The notes below the pieces were generated by a model. It was not told where the DNA came from and made no database searches. It worked only from the letters and a program-made list of their open reading frames with translations. From Ypsolopha sequella (taxonomy: Eukaryota > Arthropoda > Insecta > Lepidoptera > Ypsolophidae): DNA of 64,000 nt. A program made the translations under genes and the position numbers. The DNA is taken from the NCBI GenBank assembly GCA_934047225.1, contig OW203990.1, positions 21,183,045-21,247,044 of the forward strand. Reading direction: 5' to 3'. This document shows positions 1,986 through 55,000 of the stretch, piece by piece; position 1 is the stretch's first letter; the number at the start of each line of letters is the position of its first letter.

Positions 1986-4900
1986 ATGTTTGGTATTAAT
2001 TTATTATTAATTTTTAGTTTCTATTTGGTCCAGTTTTCGGTAAGTTTTTACCTAACAAATTAACTTGGTACCTATGTCTTCAAGTTGGGATCTCAGCATA
2101 GAATTATATTTCAGTATTGCTTCAGCGGATCTAATGGATTATTGGGGTTGATGTTCGGCTACCAAAAAATATGTTTTTGTAGTGAGTATATATTTTTCTA
2201 GAATATAATAAAAATTCAGCTTCCCTTTTAGGGTTGAAAGATATAGATTGGAAGGTAAACAAATACTTAATTACTTATAATACGTCTTTATCAACCCCAG
2301 CGAGTATTAGTATTTATCTAACTTTACTTCCTAACTTTGTCTTCACCTATTAAATTGCCGTTTTCTATATAGAATTTGAAGGAAACTCAATTTTCAGTAC
2401 TAACATTTTTGCATTTTGTTTAGGAATGACAAATCCAAATTATGTAATTTTTTTGTGTATGAATGAGACAATACTAACAACAACATTAATTTAATTTTTA
2501 AAAAGTGTCAGCTGTAAAAAATTATTACGAATCTTATCATGGAAATTGATGGCATTTAGGACGGACTGTTTTGGTTATCAAACTGACAATAAAAACAAAA
2601 TTTAATTCGTAGATGTACAACCTTGAAATCAACTTTCAAACAAAAAAACAAATAATGGAAATAGCTATTGAATTACAGGAATTATGAACTTATGAATCTG
2701 TAAGAAAATTTCGGCAATTTCATAGATAAAGACCTATTACTTCTTCCGCAAAAACAGGATGTGGAGTATCACAAAAGAACATCCTGGACCCAGTAAGGAG
2801 TGGTCGTCTCCTGGGTGGAGAGCCAGCGACACCTCATCAGTTCCCATGGCTGGCGATTGTGAACACTGGATCTCAGACGTTTGGTGGCGCATTAATTTCT
2901 GATAGACATATATTGACTGCTGCTTCACCTTTATATGGGTAAGTTAGGATATTTATACAGTTGTAACTTTAAAATAATTCTTTGGCAAAGGTCGTATTTC
3001 CTTAAATTTTTTATACATATAGGTAATATTATTAATACTCGCGTGAGCTGACATACTAAATTATTATTACATAGGTACGGCTTGAACACTCGCGTGTGAT
3101 TGTTGTTGACTATATGCCAACCGTTTCATATAGTCAACGGTTCATAAGAAACTATTGGCATGTAGTCAACAACAATCACGTGAGTGTTCAAGCCGTATGT
3201 AATAATAATATAATAATTTTTATACAGTTTATGACAGATAGTGCATGTCCGATCGCTCATGCGTATTATATCTATGGCAGATCTGTAATTATTTTTTGTT
3301 CATTATACAGTAAATAGCTACAAAACTTAAATTCCAAGGTCTACTGGTTATACTTAAGGGTTGGTTCCGTCAAACATGCTCTCGCGTGTGGAAAATTTAG
3401 CATATAAAATGAAAATATTTTTAACAAATAAATTTTTTGTAAATATCTGTAGTTAAGAAGTTAAATTACATTATGTATTTTTCAGATTTGACACAAGTAT
3501 CACAATTATCAGGACAAAAATTTTTAAGAATCACGAATAACTTAATTGGCATTGCAAATAGAAAAAAAAAAAGTTTTTTAGAAGTTTCATTTTTTTTTGC
3601 GTTAAGAGGTATTTTAATATTTTTCCTTTAATTATTTTAAAAGAAATACGCAAAATTTTAATTTTTAATTTTTTCTGTACAGATAGAATGTTGAATGTTT
3701 GGGTATTTCTTTTAAAATAACGACAAGAAATAAAAAAAAAATTAAAATCTGAAAAGGCTACTTTAAATTCTTTACTCTAAGTAAAGAAATATTTTGTTTT
3801 GTAGTTAGATTAGTAGACTGATCATACCAGTTCCAACACCAAATGACGTTTTCCGTGATTTAAGTGATATTTCCGTTTTTTTTTCTCGATGATTTTGATA
3901 CTTGTGTCAAATCTGAAAAATACACAATGTAGTTCAACTTCTTAACTTATTACCTAAATTTTATTAGTTTAAAATATTTGATTTAATATGCTAAATTGTC
4001 CAAACGCGAAAGCATGTTTGGCGGAACCGGTCCTTAACAAACTTTGTTCTAAAACAATTCATTTTAAAAATTTCACGTTATTTCAAAAGTATTCTAAATA
4101 AAATTGTTCTATAAGATTAGGTCAAATTGTGAATATGCAGTTTGTGGCGTAGTAGTTTGTAAGTAATATCTATAAGAAGCGAGTTATATAACTTAATTTC
4201 AGAGTCCAAGCCACCGAAATAACGGTGACTCTGGGAGCCCACGACCGCTGCGGTAACCACCAGCCGACCCTGAACGGTAGCGTGGCCTCTGTGGTGATCC
4301 ACCCGACCTACTCACCTACTGACATGAACAACGATATCGCACTGCTGCGGTTGAGGCACGCCGTCTACTTCAGCCAGTTCGTGTCTCCAATCTGCATGCC
4401 TCAAACCAGTGAGTGTCTTGTCTGCGACTTGTTCTAACCGACTACAACCCTAACGATTCTTGTCCCATCGTCTATTGTTTTACTATTGTTCTATATTTTT
4501 TGGTCCTGTAAGGGTTAAGGGTATGGCATATTCTAGCAAATGACGAAACAAAAACATAAATGACAAACTTAAAACGAAATGCATCATGATGAATTTGAAT
4601 AAAATAAAAAATATTTTATCTTTATATAAAAATAAAAAATGTCTTTGTAATAATATAATATTGATGCATCATGTTTTTCTGCAAGTTCTATAACAATAAT
4701 AACAAATAAAAGTGAATAGACGAAGTCGATTGTCGATCGTAAATCAAATTTGATTTAACATAGTCCTAAGATGTTTTAAATTTTAAAAATAGTATTTTAA
4801 TAATAAATATGATATAAATATTCAACACGAGTGTTATCTATAAAATTTGATCATTAATAAAAAAGTTAATATGCAGTTGAACTAAAGTGGAATAAATTCA

Positions 4901-7900
4901 TCCTAAACACATTGTTACACTTAATGAAATACAAAAAGGAACTTAAAAACAGTGTCAGAAGTGAAGAAACTAATAAATTTTACTTAAATTCAGTGAAATA
5001 AGTGTTAAAAAATCAAAAACAGTGCAAGTGCAATCTCAACAGTTTAAAGTCCAACAACCGTCCTTGCATGGCTTTAAAACAATTATTCCCAAATAAGGTT
5101 GATAATTTCGCATCAACTTGTAATCTCAAATTGGCGTAGTGGTTAAAGAGGTCAATTTTTGCAGTATTACACTGCACACTCAGCGAGGACCTGGTTCGAT
5201 CCCCGCCAACCTACAACTTTTGTAAGAAGAATGGATTTTCTAAATAATATTACTTTCCGTAAAAAAGTACACAGTCAATCGGAAAGTGATGAAACTAAAC
5301 ATAACTCATCGTCCTCGTTAGATGGCAGCACTAACAGCTTACCAAACATATCAACCGACGAACAAGTTAATCTGGAGCAGATGCGTCGCGAATTAGAAGA
5401 CGCAAATGTTCAATTAACTATCGCGCATGAAGAAATACAAAATTTGTCGTTGGAAAATTCAACTTTAAAATCAACAATAGAGGAATTGAGAAAAACATGT
5501 GACTTGTTAAAAAAAGTAACAATTGATTTGACACCCAAAAAGGCAAAACAAAAATCGACGTCTACTCAAAGGACTAAAGCTGACAAAGTGCAGATTATTC
5601 AAGCCAATCACACATCGGTTACCATTGATGTTCCGAATAACATTGAACATCAACAAACTACACCTGAACCTCCTGAACCTGAAAAAATTTGTGATTCTAA
5701 TACAGATAATACAGCAACGAAGGCAAATAAGAACAGAATATGTATACTCAGTAGCAATAAACATAACAAAATTATTAACTTAGCTGAAGAGACCTTTGGA
5801 ACTGACTACCAAATCTGTCATTATTTAACACCCCAAGTTGGAACCAGGGAGATATTAAAAGGTTTTAATGAAATAGTTAGAGACTTTACAAATGATGAAT
5901 ACTGCTTCATAATGATCGGAGATGAGGACTTCAAAAAAACAAAAAGTTACTATGACTTGGTCCTGCACATAAGGCAATCTTTAGAAAAAGTTAATCATAC
6001 AAACGTCATAATTTGTCTTCCTACTTACAAATATGGAGAACACACTAATATGTTTAACTGGCGAGTTGAAACTTTTAACAATCTCTTATATCTTGACGTT
6101 ATAACTAATGAGTACGCATACATAGTTGACTCAAACGTAACACTAGTTTATGACTTCAGCATGTTCTCAGAACGTTATAGTCAACTTAACAATCGAGGAA
6201 TGATAAACATATTCAAGAGTATGAAACAAAAGGTGATTCAGATAGAAAACTTTCATAGTAATTATTATTTAGGAACAGGTAAAAATGAGGAGGACATGAC
6301 AGAAGAAGTAAAAGAAGACGTGATAGAACAAAAACATGTGAAATACGATGATAACGTGAAAAAACAAGAGACGAATTTTTTTCGCGTATAATTATATCCA
6401 TTTACTCCACCAGAACATTTCAGGACTGATAAAAAAATCGGACGTCTTAACAGTGTATTTAGAAGAGTTATCGTCGCAAGAAACACCAGTCGAAGTCATC
6501 TGTATCACCGAGCATAATATGAAGCCGGGAGATGAACAACTACTTACGGTTCCGAATTTCAGTTTAGCAGCGCACTTCTCACGGAGTACCAAAAGAAGAG
6601 GCGGCACCTGTATCCTAGTGAAAATGGGTCAACAATTCAAAGAACTTAAAGATGTGGCTAAACTCTCGATAGAAAATGTACTTGAGTGTTGTGCAATAGA
6701 ATTAAGTAATCTTGGAGTTATTGTAGCATGTGTATATCGAGTACCTAAGAAAAGAGATGCCAAAAAGTACTTTGAAACTTTTTTCGAGAGATTGGAGCTT
6801 ATATTGTGTAAGATCCATAAGAAATCAAATAAAAAAATCGTTCTTTGCGGAGATTTTAATATTGATATTCTGAAGGACACAAATACTACGCGACGTTTCC
6901 AGAATTTATTATTTAGCTTTAATTTAAAACTTGAAATAAAAGAACCTACAAGGCTAGCAAGTGGGACGTGTTTAGACAACTTTGCTCATGATGTGAAAAG
7001 GGGTTGTAAGGGAAAAGTCATTGAATACGGTCTTTCAGACCACACAGCTCAGATATTAAAGGTTCCAATTAAAAAGACTTGTAAAATAAGTTCATGGTCT
7101 ATAGACAAGAGAGAATTCAGCAAGGATAATCTACAAAAATTCAAAAATTGTCTTAAATGTGTATCATTTTCTGAAATGTATGATTGTAAAGAGGCAAATG
7201 GTGCTTATAACAAATTCTCTGACCTTTTCCTTTTATTTTACGACCTATGTTTTCCGCTCATGAAAGTACATATAAAAGCTAATAAAAAACCTAAATGGGT
7301 CTCAAAAGGGATTAAAAAATGCAGTCGAAGACAAAGAGAGCTTCTTTGGAAATATAGAAATAATCCTACACAAGAAAACCAACTAGAACTTAAAACGTAT
7401 TCCAAAAGATTTAGAAAAATTATAAGATTGACGCAGGCATCGCAAAATAATCACTTCATACAATCATCTGAAAATAAATCAAAGGCTAGTTGGAAAGTCA
7501 TAAATAAAACAAAAACAAATTTTCCTCAGGAACCAATAGGCATAATAAAAACTGATAAAACTATAATTACGGACCCAAACCACATAGCCAATGCGTTTAA
7601 TGACTTTTTTGTGGATGAAATAAATAATGCAAATCAAAGTGCATCCAGTAGCTCTGGTAGAATAAACTATAATTCAGTTAATTCAATGTATATGCCTCCA
7701 ACAACACCAATAGCATTACGTAAAATTATCCAGTCTCTAAAAAATAAAAATAGTGTAGGCTATGATGGAGTTCACACCAAAGTAGTAAAATATGTCTCAG
7801 AAATAATAGCCCCACATATATGCTACATTTTCAACTTATGTATTAGCGATGGTATCTTCCCAGAAAGACTAAAACCGGTCATAGTCAAACCACTGTTTAA

Positions 7901-10900
7901 GAAAGAAGATAAACAAAACATGAAATTTTATCGACCCGTGGCTTTGACATCAATATTTTCCAAAATATTAGAAAAAGTAATTTACGAAAATCTATCGTCT
8001 TACTTAGAAAAATTTGGCATACTAATCAATGAACAAAAAGGTTTCCGTAAAGAAAAGACCATTAACATGGCGGTTTATGACTTACTAAACGAAATAATAT
8101 CATGTGTCGATAAAGGTAGTCCAATATGTGCTTTATATATGGACATGACGAAAGCATTCGACTTTGTTGATCATAAAATATTATTGAATAAACTTTACTC
8201 ATATGGAATAAGAGGAAACATTCATTGCCTGATTAAGTCCTATTTAAGCAACCGGCATCAAAGAACTGAAATTAATAAAATATGTCCTATTACAAGAAAA
8301 CAAATTAAATATTTGTCTCGGAAAAGAGTTATCTCCTGCGGAGTGCCACAGGGCAGTGTGCTTGGACCCTTATTGTTTTTGACATATATAAATGACATGC
8401 CCAAAAATATCCCACATCCTATGGTGCTGTTTGCAGACGATAGTACGGTGACAATAAAATGCATGAATCATGAAAATTTTGAATTAATTATTAATAATAC
8501 TTTACATGATATAATCAATTGGCTTAGTAATAATAATCTAATAGTAAATCTTGAGAAAACGAAATGTATGAATTTTTATCAAAGAGTAAACAGAATTGGC
8601 GACATTGAAATAAAATATAATGGTAAATCAATAGAAACAGTACATGTTACAAAATTTTTGGGGTTACAGATTGATCATAAACTAACATGGAAGGCTCAAA
8701 CTTCTGAAATATGTGAAAGAGTGCACAAATATGCATATCTCTTATACAAACTGTCTCAAATTGTTAATCGCGAAACAGTTATATCTGCATACCACGGCTT
8801 CGTTGCCTCCGCACTTCGATATGGTATCATATTTTGGGGCAACTCAACCGAAAAAGAAAATGTATTTAAAGCTCAAAAACGATGCATTAGGTCAATATGT
8901 GGACTAAAAACAACGGACTCTTGCCAACCTTTTTTTAAATCGCTCAAGATACTGACTTTTCCGTCTTTATACATTTATGAGATGGCAGTTTTTGTGAAGT
9001 CAAACCCTAACTTATTTACTAAGGTCTCCGAGTCGCACCATGCTAGTACTGTAAGATCACAATTTAGACATACATTATCTCTTCGATCAGCAAAAACTGC
9101 CTTAATGCACAAAAGTGCCTTCTGTATGGGACCTAAAATTTACAACGCAATTCCAAATGACATAAAAGATTTAGATATAATTTTATTTAAGAAGAAATTA
9201 TTTAATTTGCTTATTGATAAGTGTTATTATACAATTAATGATTATTTAAATGCAAATTCTTCCTTTTGACATGTGTAATATAATAATTTATAATTGCTTA
9301 TTGATAAGTGACATTGTACAATTAATGATTATTTAAATGCTAATTATTTCTTTTGACATGTGTAATATAATCATCTATTGTAAATAATATTCATAACGTT
9401 TCATAAATGTCTATTTTTTGTTTAATGAGCATGTTTAAAGTTGCATGTGTTTAATATTTGTATGCTATACTTTAAGGCAGAACATAGCGGTCAAACGCGA
9501 AACAACCACCATCTTGTAAAAAATATAATGATACACCTATGTTTCACAAATAAACGATTGATTCTGATTCTGATTCTGATTCTGATTCTGATAATTGTTC
9601 CGTTCATTATAGCAAATATTAAAACGATAAAATTAAGTTATTGATTGACATCGTAATTGCTATGCTAATTTGATTCTTAAGAATCCCAGAAAAAAAATCT
9701 TCGGAATTCCTATCATTTGTATTTTCATAAATTAGGTACATGTAATATGTAAACAAAATAGTAGTTTATGCTACAGGGGCGCAAAGGAATAATTAAACGT
9801 AACCGAGTAATTTATTGCTTTTACGCCCGTGTATCATACTACGTTTTTCAATGCATAGTGTGAGGAAATGAAAACAAATACAATCTTGTGAACTTTAAAT
9901 TATGATTGGCTCAAAAGGATTGTATCCAGAGCCGTCAAACAGTGGAAAAAAAAAGTATAATATCTATGGTACACAGGAAAAGCTGCAGGTTAGCCAACCA
10001 TTGCAAATGAATTAAAAAAATAATAATAATAAAGCCCTAGGGCAAAATAATCGACGTTCTGTTCGGTTTTGATGCATAAAAAGTGGGCCTTTACGAGCAC
10101 TTGCATTGAAAATATTATTTTTTGTTAAAGAACCACGCTCGATTTGGATAGTGCTTTTTTTACTTGCGATTGTCGGCACTTGGTGAAAGCTTATAAAAAT
10201 TTATTATGAATTATTATATAATGATTGACATTATGTCATTGCAAAATAGAAACGCAGAAAGAAAAGTAAATCTGGATGTGAGGAGCTCTGAACCGGGATT
10301 CGAACCCGGGACCTCTCGCTTACCGGGCGATTGCTCTACCAAATAACTAGCCATTGTTGAATATTATGAAATATATTTGTTTATGTAATGTAGGACGTAG
10401 GTATATCAGATATTATAAATCACTTATTATATAAAACACTTATTATAAATCGGTTTTAATGTAATATAATTAAATAATCTATGTCTATAGGTACTAGTGG
10501 ATATAGGGAAATACACAAGAAAATGATAAAGGTTAGGTTTACTTAAATTTAATAAGAAAATACACTTGAATAAAAAAAAATATATAGAAATAAGGAATAA
10601 ACAATATTATAAATACATGCGTTCAATACATATAATAAATATATGCCTAACTCCGCACATTTGATTAGTCTTGCTAAGAAGAAGGGCAAGAAACTTAGCA
10701 AGATCAACTCTTTTTTTTTATATAATATTAGTTACAAACAAATAAATGTAACAAGTAAGCTAAAACTTTAATTGAATAAAAGATAAAAAGCTAAAAACAT
10801 TAAAAATATTATAATCATATTAATTAATTGAAGTGTGAAAACTGGTTTAGAATTTTGAGAATTCCAATGAGGTCACGGCACTTTTTCATCGAATTACCTC

Positions 10901-19700: not shown

Positions 19701-22700
19701 CAAAAACTGAAAACAAAGTCCTGCCACTTAGATTTGGTGTAACTATTTGGTAACCAAATCATGACGTGGTCATTTCAAAATAATATTTATGAAAGAATAA
19801 TGCATTAACTGAAAAATAAACGAATGACAGCAAAAAAACTAGGAACGGGAAGAAGTTTAATTTTTTTTCATGTTAAATATCTCAGAAAACATCAAACTTT
19901 TGTTTCACCTATGTTTATTTTATTTGATAGGGCTTTGGCTAAGCTACCGCCCATAACCATTTGATTTACTCATTATGGGACACTCTGTATATTAATTGCG
20001 TTATTAGGATTGCACTGAGAGGCCAAAAACACGAAATAGATACCAGAAGGCCGACTCGACGTCGGAGCGAAAACAGACGCACACATGCATAGACACAGGC
20101 ATTCACCCAAATATCTCCGAGATCGTCGTGCGTACGCGTCTAAGTGTGCGTGCGCCTGTTTTCGCTAGTTATGCGGAGTAAACCTTCTGTAAGTGGTTAT
20201 TTTGTGCCAAAAACTACAATTTTAAAATTTTTGTCCTTTGTCTCTGTCTTTATGTTCCGTTTTAAATCAAGAACCACGTAACGGATTTGGATGCAGTTTA
20301 ATTTATAATTATCTTAGTGACCCTGGTCAATATATTATTACAGGTTATATGGAGTGTTGATAATATAACCACCAAGCCAAAAACAGTCGATAATTGAAAG
20401 GCGCTTCCACGCGGTTATTCCGCGGACTACAAAATATAAATAAGAAATTTGAACACTTTACTTTTTGAAAATCATGTTAATTTGGAATTTGCACTTGAGT
20501 TTAGTAACTATGTGCTCGCACTTACTGATCGTAAGGCCTCGTCCCATAGATATGGGCGGCGCTGTTGACGAGCCAAGTTCCGTTCAGCTGAATGAGGTAG
20601 CGACAGAAGTAGACCACTAACAGTGAATTGAGCCACGACTCCCCCAGACAATGGACGGCCACCCATGAAGGACCCAAAAATGCGAAAACGAAGTACAGGG
20701 GGTAGTAATATCTGAAACAAAGAAGCTTTCATATTAATAAGCGAAAACATATTGTAAAGCACTTTTATTTTCTATTTTATCAAATTATGTTGTCTAATCC
20801 AGGTACATATATAGCCTCACAGCCGTTCCCGGCTACAGCGACAGCTTCTTTAACTCCTGTCAAGTTTGAGAGCTAAGATGTCCAGCTCTCTGATGTGCTC
20901 TCAAGTGACTCGCGTAACCAATTTTTGCATTAAATGTACGCCCACATAGGGCGCACGTCAGCACACCATTCATGTAGTTGTAAGAGATGTTCGCAGGTGG
21001 CCGCCCTTTTTCGGTCTTAATCGGACCTTCGTTCTTGTTCAAAGTCATAAACTTTCCTTTGAACAAGGTTCCGCCACTCTGCGCGTTGAGCTGCCTTATC
21101 CTCCCACTGCGACGGCTCAATGTTGCATATTTTCAAGTGTCTTTTCAGAACATCCTTGTACCTAAGGTACTAAATAGATATTAGGCCCTAAATAGACTCG
21201 CACAGTCAGGGCACAGTATAATGTGGTCAGGGCTTCGTTCCGTTTGATCGCCGGATGACGCCCGCTTGCCATCTTGCACGCGTAGTATTTGCAAACGAGA
21301 TGCAAATTGCTGCATCTGAATTATCTGCTATCCTGCTATTAGTGTAGGGCGGGCGTCTTCTGACGATAAAACTGAACGCAGCCCAGGGAATTCGCGCGCG
21401 TTAAGAACAAAAAGAGTCAAATGAGAACAAAACGGGTCGTATTTTGCCGATTACAGCGTTGGCGGTTTTTAGGGTTCCGTACCCAAAGGGTAACCAACAG
21501 GACTCTATTACTAAGACTCCGCTGTTCTTCTGTCTGTCCGTCTATCTGTCCATCTGTCTGTCCGACTGTCTGTCCGACTGTCTGTCCGTCTGTCTGCCCG
21601 GCTGTCCGCCTGTCACCAGGCTGTATTTCATGAACCGTGATAGTTAGACAGTTGAAATTTTCACAGATGATGTATTTCTGTTTGCGCTATAACAACAAAT
21701 ACTAAAAAACAGAATAAAATAAATATTTAAGGGGGCTCCTATACAACAGACATGTTTTTTTGCCGTTTTTATAGATAATGGTACGGAACACTTCGTGCGC
21801 GAGTCCGACTCGCACTTGGCGGGTTTGTTTTTATAGCTAGCGACCACTTTTGCCGCTCGCTTGCAACCCTTGCAAGCGACTAGATGAGTTGTAGTCACGT
21901 AACCGTAACTTAAAAAACAAAATTTTAGTTCGGAACACCATATAGTTCGATAGTCTAATCGAATTTATCTAGACCAAACTTTTTTTGGGAAGTCCCTCGA
22001 ATGTGCATTTTCATCTACCTATGTAATAAATGAACATACGTAGGGCGGCTGACATGTAATCTCCTTGGTCAGAAATATATACAAAAATAATGCTGGCTGA
22101 TATGGATTTATATTCGTTTGTTATTCTATTTTCAAAATGTATTACATTCATTTGTTTATTGCATCACGTTTATTTGTCTCCTACAATTGTTTCGAACATG
22201 TCGGTAGAGAAAGTGAAAATGGATAAAATCGAGCAGCGTGCGGTGATTAAGTTTTTGACTAAAGAAGGGAATACGCCTTCGGAGATCAGACAGCGTATGT
22301 TACGTGTGTTTGGCAGTTCGTGTTCTTCCGAATTTGTTATAAAGTTTTGGTCAAGGCAGTTTAAATTAGGTCGTGAGAGCCTCGAAGATGATCCTCGTAG
22401 CGGAAGACCAGTTTCGGCCGTCACCGATGAAAATGTAGCCAGGGTGAAAAAAAATATATTAGAGGACCGACGAGTGAAGCAGTGGGAGATAGCTAGAGAT
22501 GTGGGCGTCAGTAAAGAGCGAGTCAATGAAATAATTCATGAGCATTTGAACATGTCCAAGGTTAGTGCACGTTGGGTCCCTAGAATGTTGACTGCATTTG
22601 ACATGGAGAGGCGTGTCAAATGTTGCGAAGAGTTTTTGGACATGAGTCGAGGGAAAGAGGAAGAAATAATTTCTAGAATTGTAACATGTGATGAGACTTT

Positions 22701-25700
22701 GATTCGACAATGGGACCCGGAAAGTAAGCAAGAGTCGTTACAGTGGAAATTTAAGGATGAGAAGCCGCCTCGGAAATTCAAGGTCTGCCCATCGGCCGGT
22801 AAACTTATGGCTACAATCTTTTGGGACACAGAAGGGATTTTGCTCATAGATTATTTACCGAAGAAAACTACAATGAATGCTGATTATTACTCAAACTTAT
22901 TATATCAACTAAGAGAGACAATAAAAGAAAAACGGCGAGGTAAACTAAGCAAAGGAATTCTGATTTTGCACGATAACGCACCAGTGCATACCGCACGCAC
23001 AACAAAGCTAGCAATTAAAGACAATGGCTTCGAAACCATTGACCACCCCCCTTATAGTCCAGATCTAGCCCCCTGTGACTATTTTCTGTTTAGACTTCTC
23101 AAGAAAGACCTCAGGGGACGAAGGTTTATGACCGATGACGAAATGAAGGCAGCGGTTTCTGACTATTTTGACGACAAACCGAAAATAATTTTTTTTAATG
23201 GCTTAAATTCAATATTTGAAAAATGTAATAAGTGCATTTTATTAGCAGGGGACTATATAGAAAAATAAAAATAAACTATCCAGTTACGTCTTTTCTTTCA
23301 TAGTTAGGTAGATTACTTTTCAGCTCGTAAAGGTGATCGACGTGACACCTAGGACTTTCTTGGAAAATAAGTTCATATAAAAAAATCTTTATGTATAAGA
23401 TTACTGACTTTTTCTGGAACATAACCATCCAATCAGCTTCGAGATCACTCATGTCGATCTTCCGTCCAAGTTGTTTAACCAGCGGATGTTTCCTGGTCAT
23501 CAGCCAGCCGACGTGGGAGAAGAAGAACCCTCGTTTAGCGTTGTGAGGATCAGCATCCGTGTCTGAGTAGCGATGATGGAGCCGGTGGTCGCGGCACCAG
23601 ATGAACATCGAGTTCTTGGAAAAAATAACACGTAAACTTTAACACTTCCGCAATTTTCACACATCACTGATCGGCCACAGCTTCAGGCTTCGAGAGGCGC
23701 GCCAAGCGGTTCTTTTTGCGACGGCGGCGCAGGCGGAGAGAACAAATGTATGAAGTTGTATAGAGCCGGCCATGGGTCGCCGCTCACGCGTCTTGTCCGG
23801 CTTCGAGTGACTTGCGCTCTCGCAACGGCGGTGTGCGGGGAGGCGGGGAGCTGCGCCAGTGATCGAGCGCACAGGACGATCCTAGTGTCGAGTGCTTTGA
23901 GCGAGCAAGCGCTGTACATCCGATGCGGTGCAAGGCACCGACGGGTGTCGTGGCAGGGCAAAGCCCGTCGCAAAAACCGCCTGGAAGCGCAGCAAGAAGC
24001 GCCGCCGCCAGAAGCCTGAAGCTGTGGCCCTGGTTATGAGTATAAGAACATACCGAGTTTTTAATACAATTGTCATATTTGACATTGCTATTGCTGTTCC
24101 AGAAAAAGTTCCAGTCACGCTACTGATTATTTGACAGTAATGGTCCTTATTGCAAATTTTTTTGTTTGTAGGAACTGTTGGCTTTAGCTTGAAAAATTTC
24201 GGGAAAAAAAAGGAAATTTTTTCGAATTTTGCAAAAAACGTTCATCACACCTTAGCGCGGATCCCTGACCAATTCATCAAATTTTCTGTTTCAAAAGTTT
24301 CAATCAAAGACAGCCTATATACCTAACAATACTCGACAGCGATGCTAACAGAAAACAGCGGCAGAAAACAAATGACGTCAACAGCAATGGGAAAGAAAAC
24401 CAAAAGCTTTTACGGTAGAGGGCGCTGAGTGTTTATCTCTTATCACGCTCTTGTAAAAGACGCTGATAGATGTTATTTTTGCATTCCACATTTCTAAAGA
24501 CTTTTGTGCCTTTTTTTTGTTGGTGTATTCGTCCTGTATTCTACCTGGCGTATCGCTCAGTTGAAGGAGTTAAAGAAAAGAGGTGCTTCGCTGCGAAGAA
24601 AGAAAGGAGACCTTGTCGTTCAAGTTGCCTTTCCTTTACACCCAAAAGCCACACAAACACCAATTGCTTAAACTTTTCAATGAAAATGAGAAATTACTCA
24701 ATTTTTTGTATGTGAACTGACAAGCTAACAGACACAAACACACAGTGCTCTCTATGGGGAACTAATTTGGCAGTAAGCATCCCCATTTGCGGGGATAATA
24801 CATATTGGCACGTCAGTCTAAGGGGGAGTCAGAGGTGTTTTTCTGAATGTAGACCTCATTTCACTGACAATTTTAACGTCCCACCCATCGTCATAAAACC
24901 GTCCAAACTTTGAGCATTTATGCTTTTTAGGCTATGACCTTTTATTTTAAGTCATCCACCCACCGATCAACGGTTTCAAGAGACCAAAATATTTTTGTTT
25001 ATTAAAAATATGCTGTTTTTGGACCCCCTAACAGCTAAAAAACCCGCTCTGTCTCAGCCACATTTTCTTGGTCAGATGGCTAAAAATTACTTGCTAAAGT
25101 TACTCTAATTTGATATTCCCCAGCACCAATATTAAGCTTTTCCATCCACGAAAATGTTCACATTATATCTCTTTTTTGCATGTACAACATTGAAAAAACT
25201 GTAGATCTATTTTTTTACTTACTGTTTTGTTCAGCTTAAATACTCGTATATATTTTAATTACAAACGTATTTTATTTATATTATTATATTAAAATGATAT
25301 TATTTACTTATTTTTATTTTTATTTATTTATTTTTGTAACTTTTATTTATCAGGTATTTTTTATGTACTTATATACCTATATTATTGTTTTCTGTATAAA
25401 AATTATTGCATAAATCACTGTAATCGTTGTTAAAGTAATTAATTATTCTGTTTTCCGCTAATAATATACAAAAGCATAGCAAACTGTGTACTCCCATTTA
25501 AATCATAATATTTGTAACCTTGGTCTAGACCCCCAGGACAAGTGCGACTTAGTGTGGGGTCTGCTACTAACCATTATTTTATTGTTAAGTCTATGCTCAA
25601 GTACTTTTTAATTTTTTAACGTATGCGTAACGCCTAGTTTAGTTTAATACTGTACTATTACTGTTACTGTTTATTAGTTTACCCACATTGTAAAGCTTAT

Positions 25701-31876: not shown

Positions 31877-32296
31877 AAGTGCTCACCTTCATTAAAAACC
31901 ACACGCTTAAAAAAAATTGGGCAACTGTGAGTCAGACTTGCGCACAAAGGGTTCCGTACCACCATACAATACGGCTACGGAGAACAAAATATATGGTAAA
32001 TAACAACTATACATACAGACCTGCCATAGCAATATTAAAGCAACAAAAAAACAAGCTGCTAAAATGGTAGCGCCTGGCAAACAATACGCGGTTCCCGCTG
32101 AGCACGGAACCCTAATGTCTTAACCGCTTTATTTTTATAATTAATTACCTGTTACTTACCATGATTTTTTTTATATTTTTCGGTAATCTTGTTTCGGAGA
32201 TACGGGGGGGGGGGACATGATAAAGTTGAATAATAATACTTTTTGAGATTTTTTTGCATGGGGCAATTTTTATTTTTTATTATTTGCTGTATATAC

Positions 32297-35485: not shown

Positions 35486-35558
35486 TAAATTATTATTACA
35501 TACGTACGGCTTGAACACTCTCGTGTGATTGTTGTTGTCTATATGCCAACCGTTTCAC
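35486..35558 (+). repeat. MITE family A, half copy
   Basis: Left half only: TATTATTACATACGTACGGC to CCAACCGTTTCAC. Confidence 0.7.
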
Positions 35559-35762
35559 CGATACAATTTCGGTATTATCAAGGCGAGTGTCGTTCTTAGG
35601 AAGATGACGCGGCGTTCACCGTCGTTGTCAAACGGGCACTGGCAGTCGCCTTTCGGCGAGCTGCACGTATTGCTCGTGCGCGAAGCATTGGCTGCATCGT
35701 CGAAGGAGGTGCGATGGTGAATGCACTTGATTATTTTAATTGTTCCAATTGTTTTCTATTAG

Positions 35763-36284: not shown

Positions 36285-37018
36285 CAGGGGTCGGCAACCG
36301 GCGGCCCGCGGGCCGCATGCGGCCCGTAGACTATCTCGGTGCGGCCCGCAAGCCTGAGGTCCGTAAGAAAAAAATACCGAAGCAAAAGGCCATATAAATT
36401 CACTAGAATTTATACGGCCATGCTGCTGGGCCATGAGAGTATTCTTGAAAGCTCGCTCCCACGCGGGGTGATAAAAATGTACCTCTATTTCATTTCTTAA
36501 GAACTGTTTATCAAGACTGTGATGTTATGTATTGTTTCTACCGAAAATAAATATTTGCTGTACTTATTCAATTCTTGGCAATTTCTTGATACAGTTCTAC
36601 GGAGGTTTGAGTTCTGAAAACTTCAAAGAATTGAAAAAGTTTGCTCAGCAGATAATAACTATGTTTGGTAGTACATATTTGTGTGAGCAGACTTTTTCAA
36701 TTCTCAACTACCGCAAAAATAAGAATTGTTCGCGGTTAACGGATGAACATTTAGACGCGATACTGCGCGTGTCTACTACTAAAATGAAAGCAGACGTTAA
36801 AAAACTTGCAAGTCAAATGCAGCCTCAAAAATCTCACTAGTTCTTACTTTTATGTTAGTATAGTAGTTCAATTAAAAAAGACATAATTGTATGAATATAT
36901 ATGCGTTTTATTTCAAATATTAAAAATACATGCCCGAACATATAAATATAAGTGCGGCCCGCACTGATACTCTGGCAACATATGTGGCCCGGCTATAGCA
37001 TAAGGTTGCCGACCCCTG
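36285..37018 (+). mobile_element. Internally deleted hAT element with 8-bp target duplication
   Basis: Perfect ends CAGGGGTCGGCAACC and GGTTGCCGACCCCTG. CTATAAGG stands at 36277-36284 and 37019-37026. It lies inside a GGTTCCGTA repeat, whose two halves join across the duplication. Confidence 0.92.
36532..36840 (+). pseudogene. hAT transposase, C-terminal dimerisation region only
   Basis: Residues from FAQQIITMFGSTYLCEQTFS through NYRKNKNCSRLTDEHLDAIL match the hAT C-terminal (dimerisation) domain with its catalytic-Glu motif CEQTFS. The upstream RNase H core and BED finger are deleted; the first 30 codons do not resemble the family. It cannot transpose alone. Confidence 0.85.
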
Positions 37019-40200: not shown

Positions 40201-43200
40201 GTATGATATTTTGATAAGAAAATAATAATCTTTTATTAGGTGCAGGGACGGGACAATACGAATGGCTCATGTGGTATGTTCTCTTTACTTCTTACTTACA
40301 ATGTAGGTTGCTTAGAATAGAATTTAATAGAAAAAGCTTTATAAGTGCCACACAACTAAAATACAACATAACTAATAAACAAACAAGAGTGACACCTAAA
40401 AGGCCTCCACTCAGCACGTGTGTGATTTATCCCGCTTTAGACTCTCTTGTTCTCTTTGAAGGATAATACACAGAGAGCTAGCCACACTAGGAACGTTGAT
40501 AAGAAAAAGGGATCTTTGTATGTATATTGTGCATGCGCAAAATCAACATCCACAGTTTTTTGACGAACATACCATACATTTAAATATAAGGTGACTTTGA
40601 TTTATACAAGATGACTTTTTGATCATCGTCCAAATACATACTGGAGGCTTGGTAAGTAACCAGCATCATGAATCGATAACAATTTTTGTGAAATTTGTAT
40701 AATAAAATTTCGACTTCCCATAGTAATTCACTCTCAGTCCTGAGTGAATCACTATGGGGAGTCAAAATTAAATTTTATGAATTTTACAAAAATCGTTATT
40801 GGCTCATGATGCTGATTACTTACAAAGGCTCAAGTATGAATTTGGACGATGTTCACAAATTCACCTTGTTTAGCTAAATTCATACTGGAGACTTTTTAAC
40901 AAATCAGTCACAAAGTTTAATGACCCTTTCTGTGAAAATCGCAAAATATTTTAGACTTCATACTAAATTGACTCGGGGTTGTTCTTAAATAAGTAGTAGG
41001 GTGTGTCACGTTGTATGGAGAAAAAAAAAGTTGTCTTTTTTTTTGACGTAATAGTTTTCAAAAGTTGCATAGAGTTCTTAACTACAAGAGTATGTAAAAA
41101 AAATGGCATTTGAGTATACTTTTGGCTCGCTCAAACATGCCAAATATTTCATAAAAATTGGTTATGAGCACTTTTTAAAAGGAGGTTTAAGTGATGCTCT
41201 ATTTTTAAATTTGTTGTTTGTATTGCGTAGATTTGTCAATTAGAATATGAATTAAGCAATAAAATGAAATATTTATAGAAAAAATAAGTTTAATCACAAA
41301 AAAATGGCATACAAAAAAACGATATTAAGGTACAAAAAACGACATTTTTAGACGAAAGAAAGTTATTTAAAGTCCTTTTTGGAATTAAATTTTGGCATAA
41401 TTTTTCTAGAATTTTGCTTAGCTGCAATTAGACCTTCTCTAGATTTTTGCCCTGCGACAGAGCCTGCAGCTTCAGTCGTCAATTTAACAGCTCTTTCTAC
41501 CGACTGAGTGTGACAGGGAAATTTGGGAAAATCGAAAATTTCGATGTTTCCTTTGGCGACAACTGTTTCCAGATCTTCAGTTTTTAAGGAGCGCAACAGC
41601 GGTGGTTTAGTAATGACAAATATTTCCTCCTGCCAGGGAATCATATCATAATAGTTTTCACAGTCAAAATTGATTTGTGGAATGATAAAAGACCTCGACA
41701 TTGGTTTTTGCGAGGCACGAGCTTTCAAAACTTTTCTACATCCAAGTTCTCTTATAACTTTGTTGTCATCTGTTAACATTGATAACAGTAAATTCTCTGG
41801 GTGAGCAAAGTATGCGTTACGCTGAATTACTGGATCCACTATTTTCTTAATGCTATCATCCAGGTATCTCGAGTTTTTGATGAGGAACCACAAATTTCTG
41901 GCGCCATCTTTACATGAGCTATGAAATTTTATTTGAAACCAGGTAGGAGCGTAAGTTCTACAGATATAATTCGCCAGCAAAATCATTTCACTTGTCGGTT
42001 GTTCTGTTGATACGTAAACCCGTAGTATTCTGTTGGCAGAGGTTAGCCATCTTGCGTGCGACATCTTTCCTGGCGATCGCTTTGATAGGTGATGGCTTAC
42101 CACTCCAGTTGATACGGCTAGACATATCTCGTACAAATATTGTTGATCCGTACTTAATTTTGTTGCTGAGAGATCCGGTAGTGAAACTGCAATAGGTTCA
42201 AACTGTTTAATTTCCCTGGTTTCACAATTTTTCAGCAATTTTCCAAGAGGGCCTGAAAAAGCATTTGGTCCGGATGTTTTTCCATCTAAGTGCTGAATTA
42301 AATGCCGCAGTGGCAATTCATTAGCATGCAGTTGACAAATAAGCCACTGCAATGGTCTTTGAAGGCGTTTTTCTAGAAGTACAATTATTCCATTTTTTCT
42401 TCCAGTATTTGTATTCGTGCCATCGCATCCCACTGCAATCAATGAATCGAGTTTAATGTTTCTTTCGGTAAGAGAAGAAAACATAACCTGTTCGATGTCT
42501 CTAGATGTTCCAGACGATGGCGTAACATGTCCAAGATAAATTGATCCCGGTTCTTGAACCAAGGTTACGTGCTCTTCTACTTTAGTACGACGATACAATC
42601 TGTTTCTATCTCGAACACAGTACATTGTTTGGTCTTTTCTACCATCAAAGAATAAAGCTTCCAGGACATTAAATTTTCGTGTTTTCATAAGAATGTCTCT
42701 TCTTTGAATTCTACGCCGTCTCAGTTTGCTATGGTCTATAATTACAGGGGGTGAAGACGTAGATTTTTTTCTAGTATCGCTCAAAGTTGCCGAAGCAATG
42801 GCAGCCCCAGCTCTATAGGATACACCGTAGCGATCGCATACTTCAGCCAACTTTTCGTATTGTATTGGAGCCAATTTTCTCTTTCTTTTTGATTTTACAG
42901 ACGGGACTTCTTGGTTGAAATCAGTGTTAGAAATTTTTACAGTTTCACTATCTGAAGAACTGTCAGAAATACAAGTCGAGGTACAAGGCTTCGGTGAGTC
43001 GGTGGTCGGCGGTCCACGGCGGCGGTTTTGCCTTTCTTGAGCCCTTTCATTTTTTTTCTGAAGAATTTCAGTGGTGGTTTTGTCGATTTTCCCAATGACC
43101 ATGCGTCTGAATGTTCTTTGGTCTTCAATAAATGGGCGTTCTTTAACTGGAACAGTTTTATTTTTTCCACATTTACAAATAGTATAATCTTTACATTTGC

Positions 43201-46200
43201 ACGCAGCAATGTCAAAAAGCGTTGCAGATTTGGTGATAAAGTTTTGTATTTTGTCCAAGTACGATTGACTTTTAGAATCTCTATTGAAATTTTTCGATAG
43301 AAGTCTGTACTGATTGCAATAAGAGAATATAAGCTGTTTTACCCTTAGGTTTGAAACGGTCGGAATGCCTGCTTTGTTCCAAACTTCAAAAATGGTTTGA
43401 GCCACTTCAGAAGCAATTACTTTTGCTTGTGGTTCTAAGCCACTTGGCTGTTTCTTTTCAAGACGAACACACTCATAATGCCTTAAAACTTCTTCATAGG
43501 TGGGCAAAGTAATATTTTCAATTTTTTTTGGATATTTATCAATAATGCGTATTTTTATTCGAGTTTTGGTATTTTTGGAACTTATTGGATTGGATGGCAT
43601 TGTTGTTCGTCTGTTGAATCACTTTTCTTTTTATCTGGAGAAACTTCACAACAGTACTAACAATAATTAAAACAAAAACGTCCGCCCGTCATTAAATTTT
43701 CAATCACACTGACAGCCGATGCGCGAGTGACGCGAAGGCGCGAAACGAGCCGAGATTGTCCGAACGACGATAGGTATTTAAAGCATTGTAAAAATAGTTA
43801 AAATGAACTTATTTTTGTTTTTTTCTAATGTTCACTATGGAAATATTAGAAAAACATGATATTATTATAAATACGGTGCGTAAAAATAACAAATATATCG
43901 TTCTAAAAAAAACGTTACTTAGCGTGTTTTTGTATATTTCTAGGCCTTTGAGCGAGCCAAAAGTACTATTTTTAATAAAAACTGTTAATGCAGTATTTAA
44001 ACGGATAACAAAATGCAACTTTTGAGACCTATTACATTCGAAAATTCGAAAGTTAAAAAAAATGACACACCCTAATAAGTAGGCACAAATAATATTTTTC
44101 GTGTTTTGCAAAAAGGCCATTGAAAATTTCATCCAATCGCGTTTTTCTTCAGTGAGAATCTTAATCAAATACTCAATAAACATTTAGCCAAAAATGACAT
44201 ACGTAGATGACGTTATAGTGGAGTAAATGGATTCGAGAAAACCCCATTTTTTTTGGTATCGCCTTAGTCAAGTGTCAAGACAGTATAGCTCCAACTGGTA
44301 CAAATGGCTGCTCATCCTTCATCAGACAAAAAACGACATGACTGACTCAACTAAGTGTTTTCGGACCCGCCAGGAAAGCTGGCTCCCTCAGTATCCGATG
44401 AGATACTCGGAGTTGTATGGCTCACTTACTTCCTGGGATGAAAATGCACGTATACATGCACGCCGAGCCCGGTTCCATTGTTATCTAATCACCTTGGTAC
44501 TGTAATGCCGGCTGTACACACTCGCCTCTCGCCGAGAGTCTTGGGCGAGAAGTTCTCGACGAAAGCACAGCATGTACACACTCGTTGCGTCATTTGAACA
44601 GCGGATATCGGCCACGATGGACCTAGAAACTGCTGCTGCCGTTTGTCTTTGTGCTGTTAGCCATAAGCGAATCCCGCTTCTTCTTTAAATCTTCAACGGG
44701 AATGTCTATCATGTTGCTTATTCGGACCCAAGCATCATGAATAAATTGTTTGTCTTTATGTTTTAAATGCTTTGGGTCCCAAATCACAGGTTCATTTTGA
44801 TAGCATTCTAAAAATTCTATTTCACGATCGTTGGACCACATTTTTAACCGATAGCGAACACGTCTTTACACAAATACAGTAAGCGGGCAACTAAATGAAC
44901 GTGTGTGTACATGCTTGGTCTCGTTTACCTCGCGAGAGCGGACAAAACACTTTGAATCGGCCACAAAAAACCGACACGCGGCCGAGGCGAACCGAGGCGA
45001 GAACCGAGCGGGCGAGACAAGGCGAGAGAGCATCATGTACACACTCGTTCTCGGTCAGTCTCGGGGTGTCTCGGCGAGTGTGTACAGCCGGCATAACAAT
45101 TGAAGTCTTGCAGAATGCGGCATTGCCGGAGCGAACCGGCGCATCGTGGGAGGAAGTAGAGTGCAGCCTCACAAGTACCCTTGGCTCGTGGCGCTGATGC
45201 TGGGACCAAAGCTGCACTGCGGGGGAGCCATCATCACGGACATGCATATTCTTTCAGCTGGTCATTGTATCACATTCGGGTTAGCATTATTAACTGCGCT
45301 TTTATAACCAGATTGCGCTCTTTAGGGACACTGAAGAAAGTCGTTCAGTGTGATCACCAGGTTTTAGATTTGTAACTACTCGCTTGAGAACGAATTCGGA
45401 AAGAATTCGAAACATGTCACGTATCGCGAGATAATTCATGTAAGTTTATCCGTTTTTATAGTAGTTTAGGCTACAAGGCAAAAAGGAATAAATTACGAGG
45501 ATGATTTGTGTTTTAAACGTATCCGTGTAATTTATTCCTCTTACGCCCGTGTATCATACTACGTTTTTCAATGCATAGTGGGAGGAAATGAAACAAATAT
45601 TAATATTAATTTCAGCTTAATTGGCGTAATTATATACTGGGTTGCGAATAAGTACGACCATAGATATCTGAACCGATGAGATATGGTAAGGGGGCGTAGC
45701 GCTTGTGAACGAACGCATGTGGCCAAAAATAGCCCTGATGCGAGACCCAATGTCAATATCAGTAGAGATGTGATGTGGTGTTGTCTTCGGCTACAGGTTG
45801 ACGCGCAGCCCTCTTTTTGCATGTGCTCTATTAGTGTGCGTGAGAAATATGAGTAGGTACTGTGGTTTTTGTGTCTATGTCGGTAAAATAAGTGGGAGGA
45901 AACGTAGAGACATCTGAGCACGAACAATTAGAGTAAAAAGGCAAATCTCATCTGATCTGAGGGTGTGACGACGATTAATCGTATTTAAAATTAAATTTCT
46001 AGTGTCCACTTCAAGGATTTGAAAGTGAACGTGGGGATGCACGACCGCCTCGACAACAACTTTCAGGAGTTGCGCATCGCCAACGGAGTGAAACACCCTT
46101 CCTTCACCTCGAATGCTGTGAGGGACATCAATGACATCGCCGTGCTCACCCTGAATCAGCAATTGATGTTCTCGGACAGAATCAGACCCATCTGTTTACC

Positions 46201-52087: not shown

Positions 52088-55000
52088 ATGTGGTTTATCG
52101 GAGTAGTTGTGGTTGTTTTGATTGGAATTTTGAAGGTGAGTAAAAATGAAAATTCTTTTCAAATTTCTAATATGTTGTAAAGGTAAATAACAGAGTAAAT
52201 AAATTTAAGGTGGTGATCATCGAGGGTGCACAGTGTCGTAAGTTCTAGACTTTTTTATTTTTATTGTAATATTATCAAAAACTTAATGTACCCGAGACAG
52301 CCTTTATACAAGTCATTGTCATCAACAACAGTTCATATGTATATGCGTATATTATAGACGTGACTCTATTATCTTTTACATAACAATTCATAAATTAAAA
52401 AATTAAAAACTCTAAGTACGGGAGCTAAAATTTTGTTTTGCCATTAACTTGATATTTCCGTATGAATTTGGCTGTAGTGTAGATCTAAATCACTACTTTT
52501 TTAAGAGATCATCAATCAGCCCACATCCACCCACTATTGGACATTACTTTCTTAGGATTGACATAGGTAAGGAAGGGAATTATCATCCAAATCCTTTTTT
52601 TTTTTCGTAGATCTAATATGGCATATTTAGTTCATCACCGTGAATCGTAATCATGTTTCAATATTTCGTTGATTTTACGATAGCTACACGTAAATAAATT
52701 GTGAAAATTCGGGCAAGTGCAAGTTTGGACTGAGTTTTGAATTCGATCTCTGCTGAAAAACTCCCGTTGCGTACAAAATCTACTGCGGGAGTTTTTCGAA
52801 TCGCTGGTGCAGAGGTGATTTTAGTAACCGTATTAGTAAGTTCAAATAATGTCAAAAGATTATTTATTTTTAATTGGAGTTAGGAAATTTTCGAAAGCAT
52901 TTCAACAAAAATCCATAATTGGTACGACGACAAGGAAAGCGGAGCCGAGCGACGAGGAGCGTGTTAGGTTGCTCGTAATGATAATTTTCGCTTTCCAAGG
53001 AGACCCTGTTGGGTTCCTAAAGGTATAAGAAACACTTGGTGCTTAGTGATATGATAACACCCAACAGATGACAATAAAAGTATATAGGTTGAAAATTAAC
53101 CCCCTAGCTATTTTGAAATATATGAATCAGAATCACTAATAGAACACAGAATCGTTAAAAAAACGTCGTTTTCTTTCATATTTTTTATTGGATATAGTTT
53201 CGTAATTTCGAATAAATGGCTAACCTACGTGACGCGACATGTGATTGACAATATACTGTAGGGCCTTCCCCGCAACGAGCCTCCGACCCCCAGTCATCGA
53301 TGAAAAATCTACGCAATCCACCCTCCCACCCGCGATCTATTTTGACGGCCGATATCTTTATTTTTTATTATGAAACAAGACATTTAGATAGTATATTTGA
53401 TTTAGAACATAGAATAGTTTTCTCTGATATAGCAAGGGGGTTCATTATCAACCTGTATAACAAACTACCTAATATCATTAAAAATATAAATTATATTTTC
53501 AGTCAAAAACTATTTTTTTTTTATGTACGACTATCACTCAGTGGCGTGCACAGAACTTTTTTCCGGAAAAGCAATCAGAAGGTCAAGTACGACAATAAAA
53601 AAAATATGAAAAAATTTAAATAACACTTTGAAAAAAAAAGTTTGTATGAAAATGTTCACTCTGGGAAAGGCAGTGCCTACCCTGGCGTCATACAAACTTT
53701 TTTTTTTCAAAGTGTTATTAAAAAATGTTCATATTTTTTTTATTGTCCTACTTGACCTTCTGATTGCTTTTCCGGAAAAAAGTTCTGTGCACGCCACTCT
53801 ATCACTAGTGGTACATAAGCCACTAGTGATGGTGGTAAATAAACAAAATTGGTTGAAAACACTAGTGGTTGTTTTTGACTGAAAAATATTATTACTTTGT
53901 TGACGAATATTTAAATGATAAAGACATATGCAATTAATTTGTTATCTTATTGTATCATGTATTTTTCAATTAGTATTTCTTTGACATTGCTACTGATATA
54001 ATTGACATTAGATTTAAGTGTAAATAAATAATGTAAATAGATAATAATGTCATTCATGGCCCATTTTTGCAATACCGACAAGGTTAAATATATATGTCTT
54101 GGTATGTATGTACTTTCTATTTATTAACACCATTTTAATTTTAGGTTAAACGACAGTCCCTTAGCACAAAGTGCATAACTTAACTTTGTTTGTTTTGTTT
54201 TAACCTTAAGCTTTTTTTACTGATTTGATTACGAAACGAAACATAGCTAGTTAAATGTCAAAATGGGATGACGTTCCGTAGTGAATATGATCAAAGTGTG
54301 ACTTGGTGGTATAAATAAATCAATAAAAGATGCTTAATTGTTCCTTACAAAATACAAATAATACATAAGTGAAAAGACAAAAAGGTCAGCATACAGCTAG
54401 CTGACACACATGCAGACAGCCCCCGATTTTCAACTTAGCCTTGATGAAACACATATTAGATTAAAGTAACAACAATAAATACTACAAAATAAAAAAAAAA
54501 TTAAAACCATAGAAAGAAAAAAACTACAAACATTTAAAAACATCAAGAAAATACTAATTTTTAGAGGAAACACCTAGAGCTTGAGACTGCTTCATCCGCT
54601 ACACTTAGCGCGGAAAGAGTTTAATGATGGTGGTGGTAGCACATTCCAGCATTTAGATGCAACTAAGTATCTTGAAGCAGCCCCTGGCCCGGTAGCATAG
54701 TGTTTAATCGCGGGCGACGCAACTTAGTTGAATCACAAATGCGAGGAGCGTGACACGATGTTTTTGCGATTAAACAGTATGTCACGCTCCTTGCACTTGT
54801 GATTCAATAGTGGCGTCGCGCGACGCCGCCTGGTGTTGGCAAGAGTAGTTTTAGGAGTTATGATTATGTTTCTACGAGATGTACATAACCATACTAATTT
54901 CTTATATAAATATAAAGGAGTTTTAGTTTAACATGATAGTTTTAATGCTCTTGTACAAGTCATATTCAAGATACCTTTAACCTGAAGATGGGGTGAAATG

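Follow-up and report, generated by a model that had tools for sequence, protein, structure and literature searches.

The analyzed window, a stretch of 64,000 nucleotides from Ypsolopha sequella, contains an element of 3,078 bp with its gene on the minus strand, which is apparently a complete, recent DNA transposon. The 12-bp terminal inverted repeats (TIRs) and the 8-bp target-site duplication (TSD) were perfect, two nested pairs of subterminal inverted repeats lay inside the ends, and a single open reading frame (ORF) of 745 codons was present, all as described in a previous sequence-only reading of this DNA. Scanning the window for perfect 12-bp inverted arms, 100 bp to 6 kb apart, with a perfect 8-bp duplication on the flanks gave three places, against none in 20 Markov-resampled windows. 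The longest subterminal pair, repeat 2, was perfect over 19 bp, beyond the maximum of 15 bp obtained from 300 resampled end pairs.

Features of the element and its transposase gene (positions in the window)
Feature	Position	Strand	Remark
Left TSD ATAAGTAG	40989..40996	.	T at 2, A at 7
Complete transposon, 3,078 bp	40997..44074	-	Five complete copies in the genome
TIR TAGGGTGTGTCA, left	40997..41008	+	
Subterminal inverted repeat 1, left arm TCAAAAGTTGCAT	41058..41070	+	Putative transposase-binding site
Subterminal inverted repeat 2, left arm TACTTTTGGCTCGCTCAAA	41117..41135	+	From base 121 of the end; putative transposase-binding site
Transposase ORF, 745 aa, intact	41363..43600	-	455 homologues at E ≤ 1e-3
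E702, proposed catalytic Glu in P-x6-ER	41495..41497	-	Spacing as around Hermes residue 572
R517-W518, insertion-domain RW motif, proposed counterpart of Hermes W319	42047..42052	-	
C422-x2-H425, CxxH motif	42326..42337	-	
D393, proposed second catalytic Asp (GCDGT)	42422..42424	-	
D319, proposed first catalytic Asp (FDGRKD)	42644..42646	-	
N-terminal Cys cluster C134-x-C136...C142-x-C144	43169..43201	-	Invariant in 106 distinct proteins
Subterminal inverted repeat 2, right arm	43947..43965	-	From base 110 of the end
Subterminal inverted repeat 1, right arm	44013..44025	-	
TIR TAGGGTGTGTCA, right	44063..44074	-	
Right TSD ATAAGTAG	44075..44082	.	

A six-frame search of the 867-Mb host genome, in which the window lies on contig 7, yielded 63 matches, a lower bound because 60 of 259 candidates were scored. 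The matches of the window's own family showed 96–100% identity, and those of other lineages showed 33–55%. With the left end (274 bp) as a query, exactly five places were found, each inside a complete element. These five copies differed pairwise at 0.16–1.33% of sites and were flanked by five different 8-bp duplications, one around each. A second copy differed from that in the window at only 5 of 3,078 sites, in line with the earlier suggestion of a recent insertion. The ORF was free of stop codons in three copies (L001, L002, and L003), contained one TGA in L004, and was broken in L005; the window's own family included one additional fragment, L006. Since the left 274 bp matched the five complete copies only, no miniature inverted-repeat transposable element of this family was seen with this query, in DNA searches that skip common words. 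In other lineages of the transposase family, several host-genome copies had open frames as well, with lengths that included 748, 772, and 745 aa.

TSDs were surveyed at 28 loci (L001–L028, including that of the window) with the end sequence left free. An exact 8-bp duplication was found at 18 loci, 17 of which had TAGGGTG ends and one of which (L027) had TAGGCTG. T at position 2 was present in 15 of these duplications, A at position 7 in 16, and both in 13; several of the 18 were copies of one lineage, each representing a separate insertion. Uninterrupted paralogous target sites, recognized as short repeat matches of 79–92% identity with a single copy of the 8 bp, were found for three sister-lineage copies: for L008 at window positions 3058–3127 (8 bp exact) and 35487–35598 (one change), for L007 at L004 939–1004 (8 bp exact), and for L013 at L023 4471–4573 (one change). 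In the other matches of L007 and L008, at least one of the 8 bp differed. For L005, of the window's own family, a site in the window (32164–32218) had equal 8-bp spacing with different letters. The search for more copies and empty sites that had been proposed earlier thus yielded copies with 8-bp duplications and empty sites of sister lineages, and no empty site for the window's own insertion. The copies with different 8-bp duplications and the paralogous empty sites of sister lineages support the interpretation as an insertion.

Perfect paired subterminal repeats began at bases 110–128 from both ends in four of the six loci examined (L001, L007, L017, and L027). In L009 and L024, with ends common to both, no shared stretch of at least 11 bp was found beyond the TIR. 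The letters of the subterminal repeats varied between lineages though their position was kept, and GCCTCCGGAT was common to L007 and L027.

The homologues of the transposase were collected from 7,994 scored candidates, 120 of which were listed. Among those listed, the closest was from Helicoverpa armigera (70%), further named sources were Diatraea, Spodoptera, Amyelois, Cydia, Diabrotica, and Daktulosphaira, and the named relatives were hypothetical, uncharacterized, or unnamed proteins. Two alignments of 43 and 64 rows (107 rows) covered 106 distinct proteins, namely, that of the window and 105 of the 120 listed, with 15 left out. D319, D393, C422, H425, R517, W518, E702, C134, C136, C142, and C144 were invariant across the 106 proteins. 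The motifs DGRKD, GCDGTNTNTG, C-x2-H, and TQSVER and the N-terminal CKC...CKC cysteine cluster, which the sequence-only reading had singled out, were all present. The cysteine cluster is possibly a zinc-binding site.

No Pfam family matched the window's protein at E ≤ 10, in agreement with the earlier remark that a BED finger and a dimerization domain are not recognizable, and no NCBIfam match was obtained either. PF05699 and BED were absent among the families listed for the 106 proteins (the best 25 of 44 and 25 of 43). PF14372 (hAT-like_RNase-H) matched 3 of 43 members with a best E of 0.028 and was absent among the best 25 families for the other 64; this match was treated as chance because COR-A hit at least as many members, with lower E-values (best E 0.00055 for 3 of 43 and 0.0019 for 5 of 64). 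Neither the protein nor the 43-row profile hit a transposase when the sequences of solved structures were searched. No relative was confirmed by tblastn in prokaryote and viral collections, none was found in viral contigs searched with a hAT consensus, and nothing in BFVD passed E ≤ 0.001, a bracovirus protein of unknown function (8.9e-3) coming first.

The structure of the transposase was predicted with a mean predicted local distance difference test score (pLDDT) of 82.7; the N-terminal piece predicted alone (mean pLDDT 55.3) was not used. The predicted model contained an RNase H core interrupted by a Hermes-like helical insertion. In the structural alignment, Hermes (PDB 4d1q and 8edg) was the best by Z, with the alignment extending to Hermes residue 609. 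ISCth4, a bacterial member of the IS256 family, was second (Z 11.2), with a shorter alignment than Hermes. The proposal made from the sequence, a D,D,E transposase with an RNase H fold and close to hAT, is supported by this model, in which D319, D393, and E702 are proposed to form the D,D,E triad and the insertion domain is all-helical.

The element is likely a hAT-type cut-and-paste DNA transposon that is complete, moved recently, and may still be active, with hATm as its most likely group. By analogy with Hermes, a hAT-type mechanism is very probable, in which a D,D,E transposase would cut and paste the element. The transposase would bind the 12-bp ends and probably also the two pairs of subterminal repeats, which may do the job of the BED-bound subterminal repeats in Hermes (PMC10368747). 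Excision would proceed as in hAT enzymes through a hairpin on the flanking DNA, aided by CxxH and W518. Both 3′ ends would then be joined to the target 8 bp apart with a preference for nTnnnnAn, and host repair would generate the 8-bp duplication.

hATm, a Repbase label, is a proposed fourth hAT family with more than 74 Repbase entries, marked by 5′-TAGGGTG...CACCCTA-3′ ends, published in 2018, and 8–9-bp TSDs (PMC6004678). In comparison with this description, the window element has all seven terminal bases equal at both ends, an 8-bp TSD, and an occurrence in insects. The earlier statement that no named family fits is therefore probably wrong, and assignment to hATm is somewhat favored; the comparison with hATm covered the published termini and TSD. 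Because these marks fit, whereas the statement that hATm-6 carries PF05699 does not, the element is called hAT-type, probably hATm.

For comparison at the sequence level, six hAT proteins of the same genome (L059–L063 and L039) were taken from 150 scored PF05699 matches among 1,459 candidates; L063 has an open frame without the usual SER motif, and the frame of L039 is cut by the locus end. Canonical PF05699 hATs were abundant in the host genome. Alignment of the 43-row profile with the six hATs by hhalign gave a probability of 0.4 and a score of 22.3 over residues 364–559, along a path on which GCDGT falls opposite the second Asp of the hATs, the two CxxH motifs coincide, and SRW is aligned to TRW. 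With L063 excluded, the best path in the five-hAT comparison covered residues 102–137 and was meaningless. Although the motifs lie in the hAT register, the score of 22.3 is no proof, since 30 column shuffles reached 24.7; profile–profile proof of hAT homology was thus not obtained. The five decayed copies L029–L033 (33–37%), considered as possible bridges to hAT, turned out to belong to the window's transposase family, their frames being disrupted by stop codons and frameshifts.

Several observations weigh against a hAT-type element of the hATm group. The score of 22.3 lies within the range of the column shuffles (the reversed profile gave 14.4), and the profile scored 10.8–11.0 against the C-terminal piece of Hermes, for which 60 shuffles reached 14.9. 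The Pfam search leaves the window's protein with neither PF05699 nor BED, whereas hATm-6 is said in PMC6004678 to carry PF05699 and to have TIRs of 417 and 575 bp, in contrast to the 12 bp of the window element. The second residue after the first Asp, W182 in Hermes, is Arg in the window's protein. By Foldseek E-value, ISCth4 (2.4e-4) stands just above Hermes, and within the first ten rows those of Hermes, ISCth4, and the P element had low query TM-scores (0.16–0.26). A clean 8-bp duplication was not seen at 10 of the 28 loci, of which L006 is a fragment and L018 lies within an AT repeat; at L012, L015, L016, L019, L025, and L026, one or both ends were not found or the ends lacked a matching duplication. 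In the sister copies L011 (910–3913) and L023 (870–3873), a flanking 7–8-bp repeat was offset from the right end by 4 bp and 3 bp, respectively, as if the right end or the insertion were slightly off.

These observations leave room for a superfamily-level lineage beside hAT, widespread in insects and invisible to Pfam, which we consider unlikely. In such a lineage, a CxC zinc domain would have replaced BED and a recognizable hAT dimerization sequence would have been lost, the hAT active site and nTnnnnAn would have been kept, and the TAGGGTG ends would be common with hATm by chance or ancient descent. The lack of any Pfam family for the window's protein, the absence of PF05699 and BED among the families listed for the 106 proteins, the invariant cysteine cluster, and the profile scores not exceeding shuffles are in its favor, but the terminal bases equal to those of hATm, the first place of Hermes by Z, and the hAT register of the second Asp, CxxH, and RW on the six-hAT path, from which the five-hAT path differs, argue against it. 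A new superfamily without known relatives is disfavored by the ends, the target bias, and the fold, and was kept as a rival. Mutator/IS256 elements likewise make 8–9-bp duplications, and ISCth4 ranked second by Z and first by Foldseek E-value; nevertheless, a Mutator/IS256-type transposon is very improbable. Still less credit is given to a relative of P elements or of KDZ/Zisupton. Overall, the hAT-type element of the hATm group is preferred. It is ordinary in kind and probably no new kind, and useful as a clean copy, mobile until recently, of a group that escapes Pfam.

Elsewhere in the window, at the two other places given by the scan for inverted pairs, different features were seen. A 734-bp stretch (36285–37018) with perfect 12-bp hAT-like ends CAGGGGTCGGCA and an 8-bp duplication CTATAAGG contained no ORF of at least 150 aa and looks like a non-autonomous hAT-type element. 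Another perfect 12-bp inverted pair (53569–53769) was flanked by the palindromic TTCCGGAA, and this "duplication" may belong to an inverted repeat of greater length. A non-long-terminal-repeat retrotransposon with two long ORFs was present at 5159–9269; its second ORF, of 938 aa, matched a reverse transcriptase model, with an endonuclease model just below the cut-off. A mariner-type transposase ORF of 392 aa (PF01359) was located at 22090–23268, and no inverted ends were found in a quick scan of 750–800 bp on each side.

No Pfam model was found for the transposase family, and a model built from the two alignments would classify its hypothetical, uncharacterized, or unnamed relatives. The host genome, with five near-identical complete copies, three of them with stop-free ORFs, is practical for testing mobility and BED-less DNA binding.

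hAT elements are described as 2.5–5 kb long with short TIRs of 10–25 bp (PMC3942097), and the 3,078-bp element with its 12-bp TIRs falls within these ranges; the exact 8-bp TSDs at 18 of 28 loci are also those of hATs. Among the canonical hATs of the same genome, L059 and L061 had 8-bp duplications and TAGA... ends, L062 was doubtful, and none were found in L060 and L063. These hATs matched PF05699 above the cut-off, unlike the window's protein, but their C..H and RW motifs were in register with the window family in the six-hAT comparison. CxxH and the insertion-domain Trp (Hermes W319) have a role in hAT enzymes according to PMC4763223, and C422, H425, and W518 were present in all 107 rows. 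Sequence similarity to Hermes was not detectable, the TIR sequence differs, and an invariant CxC...CxC cluster stands in place of a match to the N-terminal BED. On the other hand, counterparts are proposed for CxxH, W319, and E572 of Hermes, the P-x6-ER spacing is retained despite the lack of a PF05699 match, subterminal repeats occur in both elements, and the Hermes target preference nTnnnnAn, as given in PMC10368747, recurs in 13 of the 18 duplications of the transposase family.
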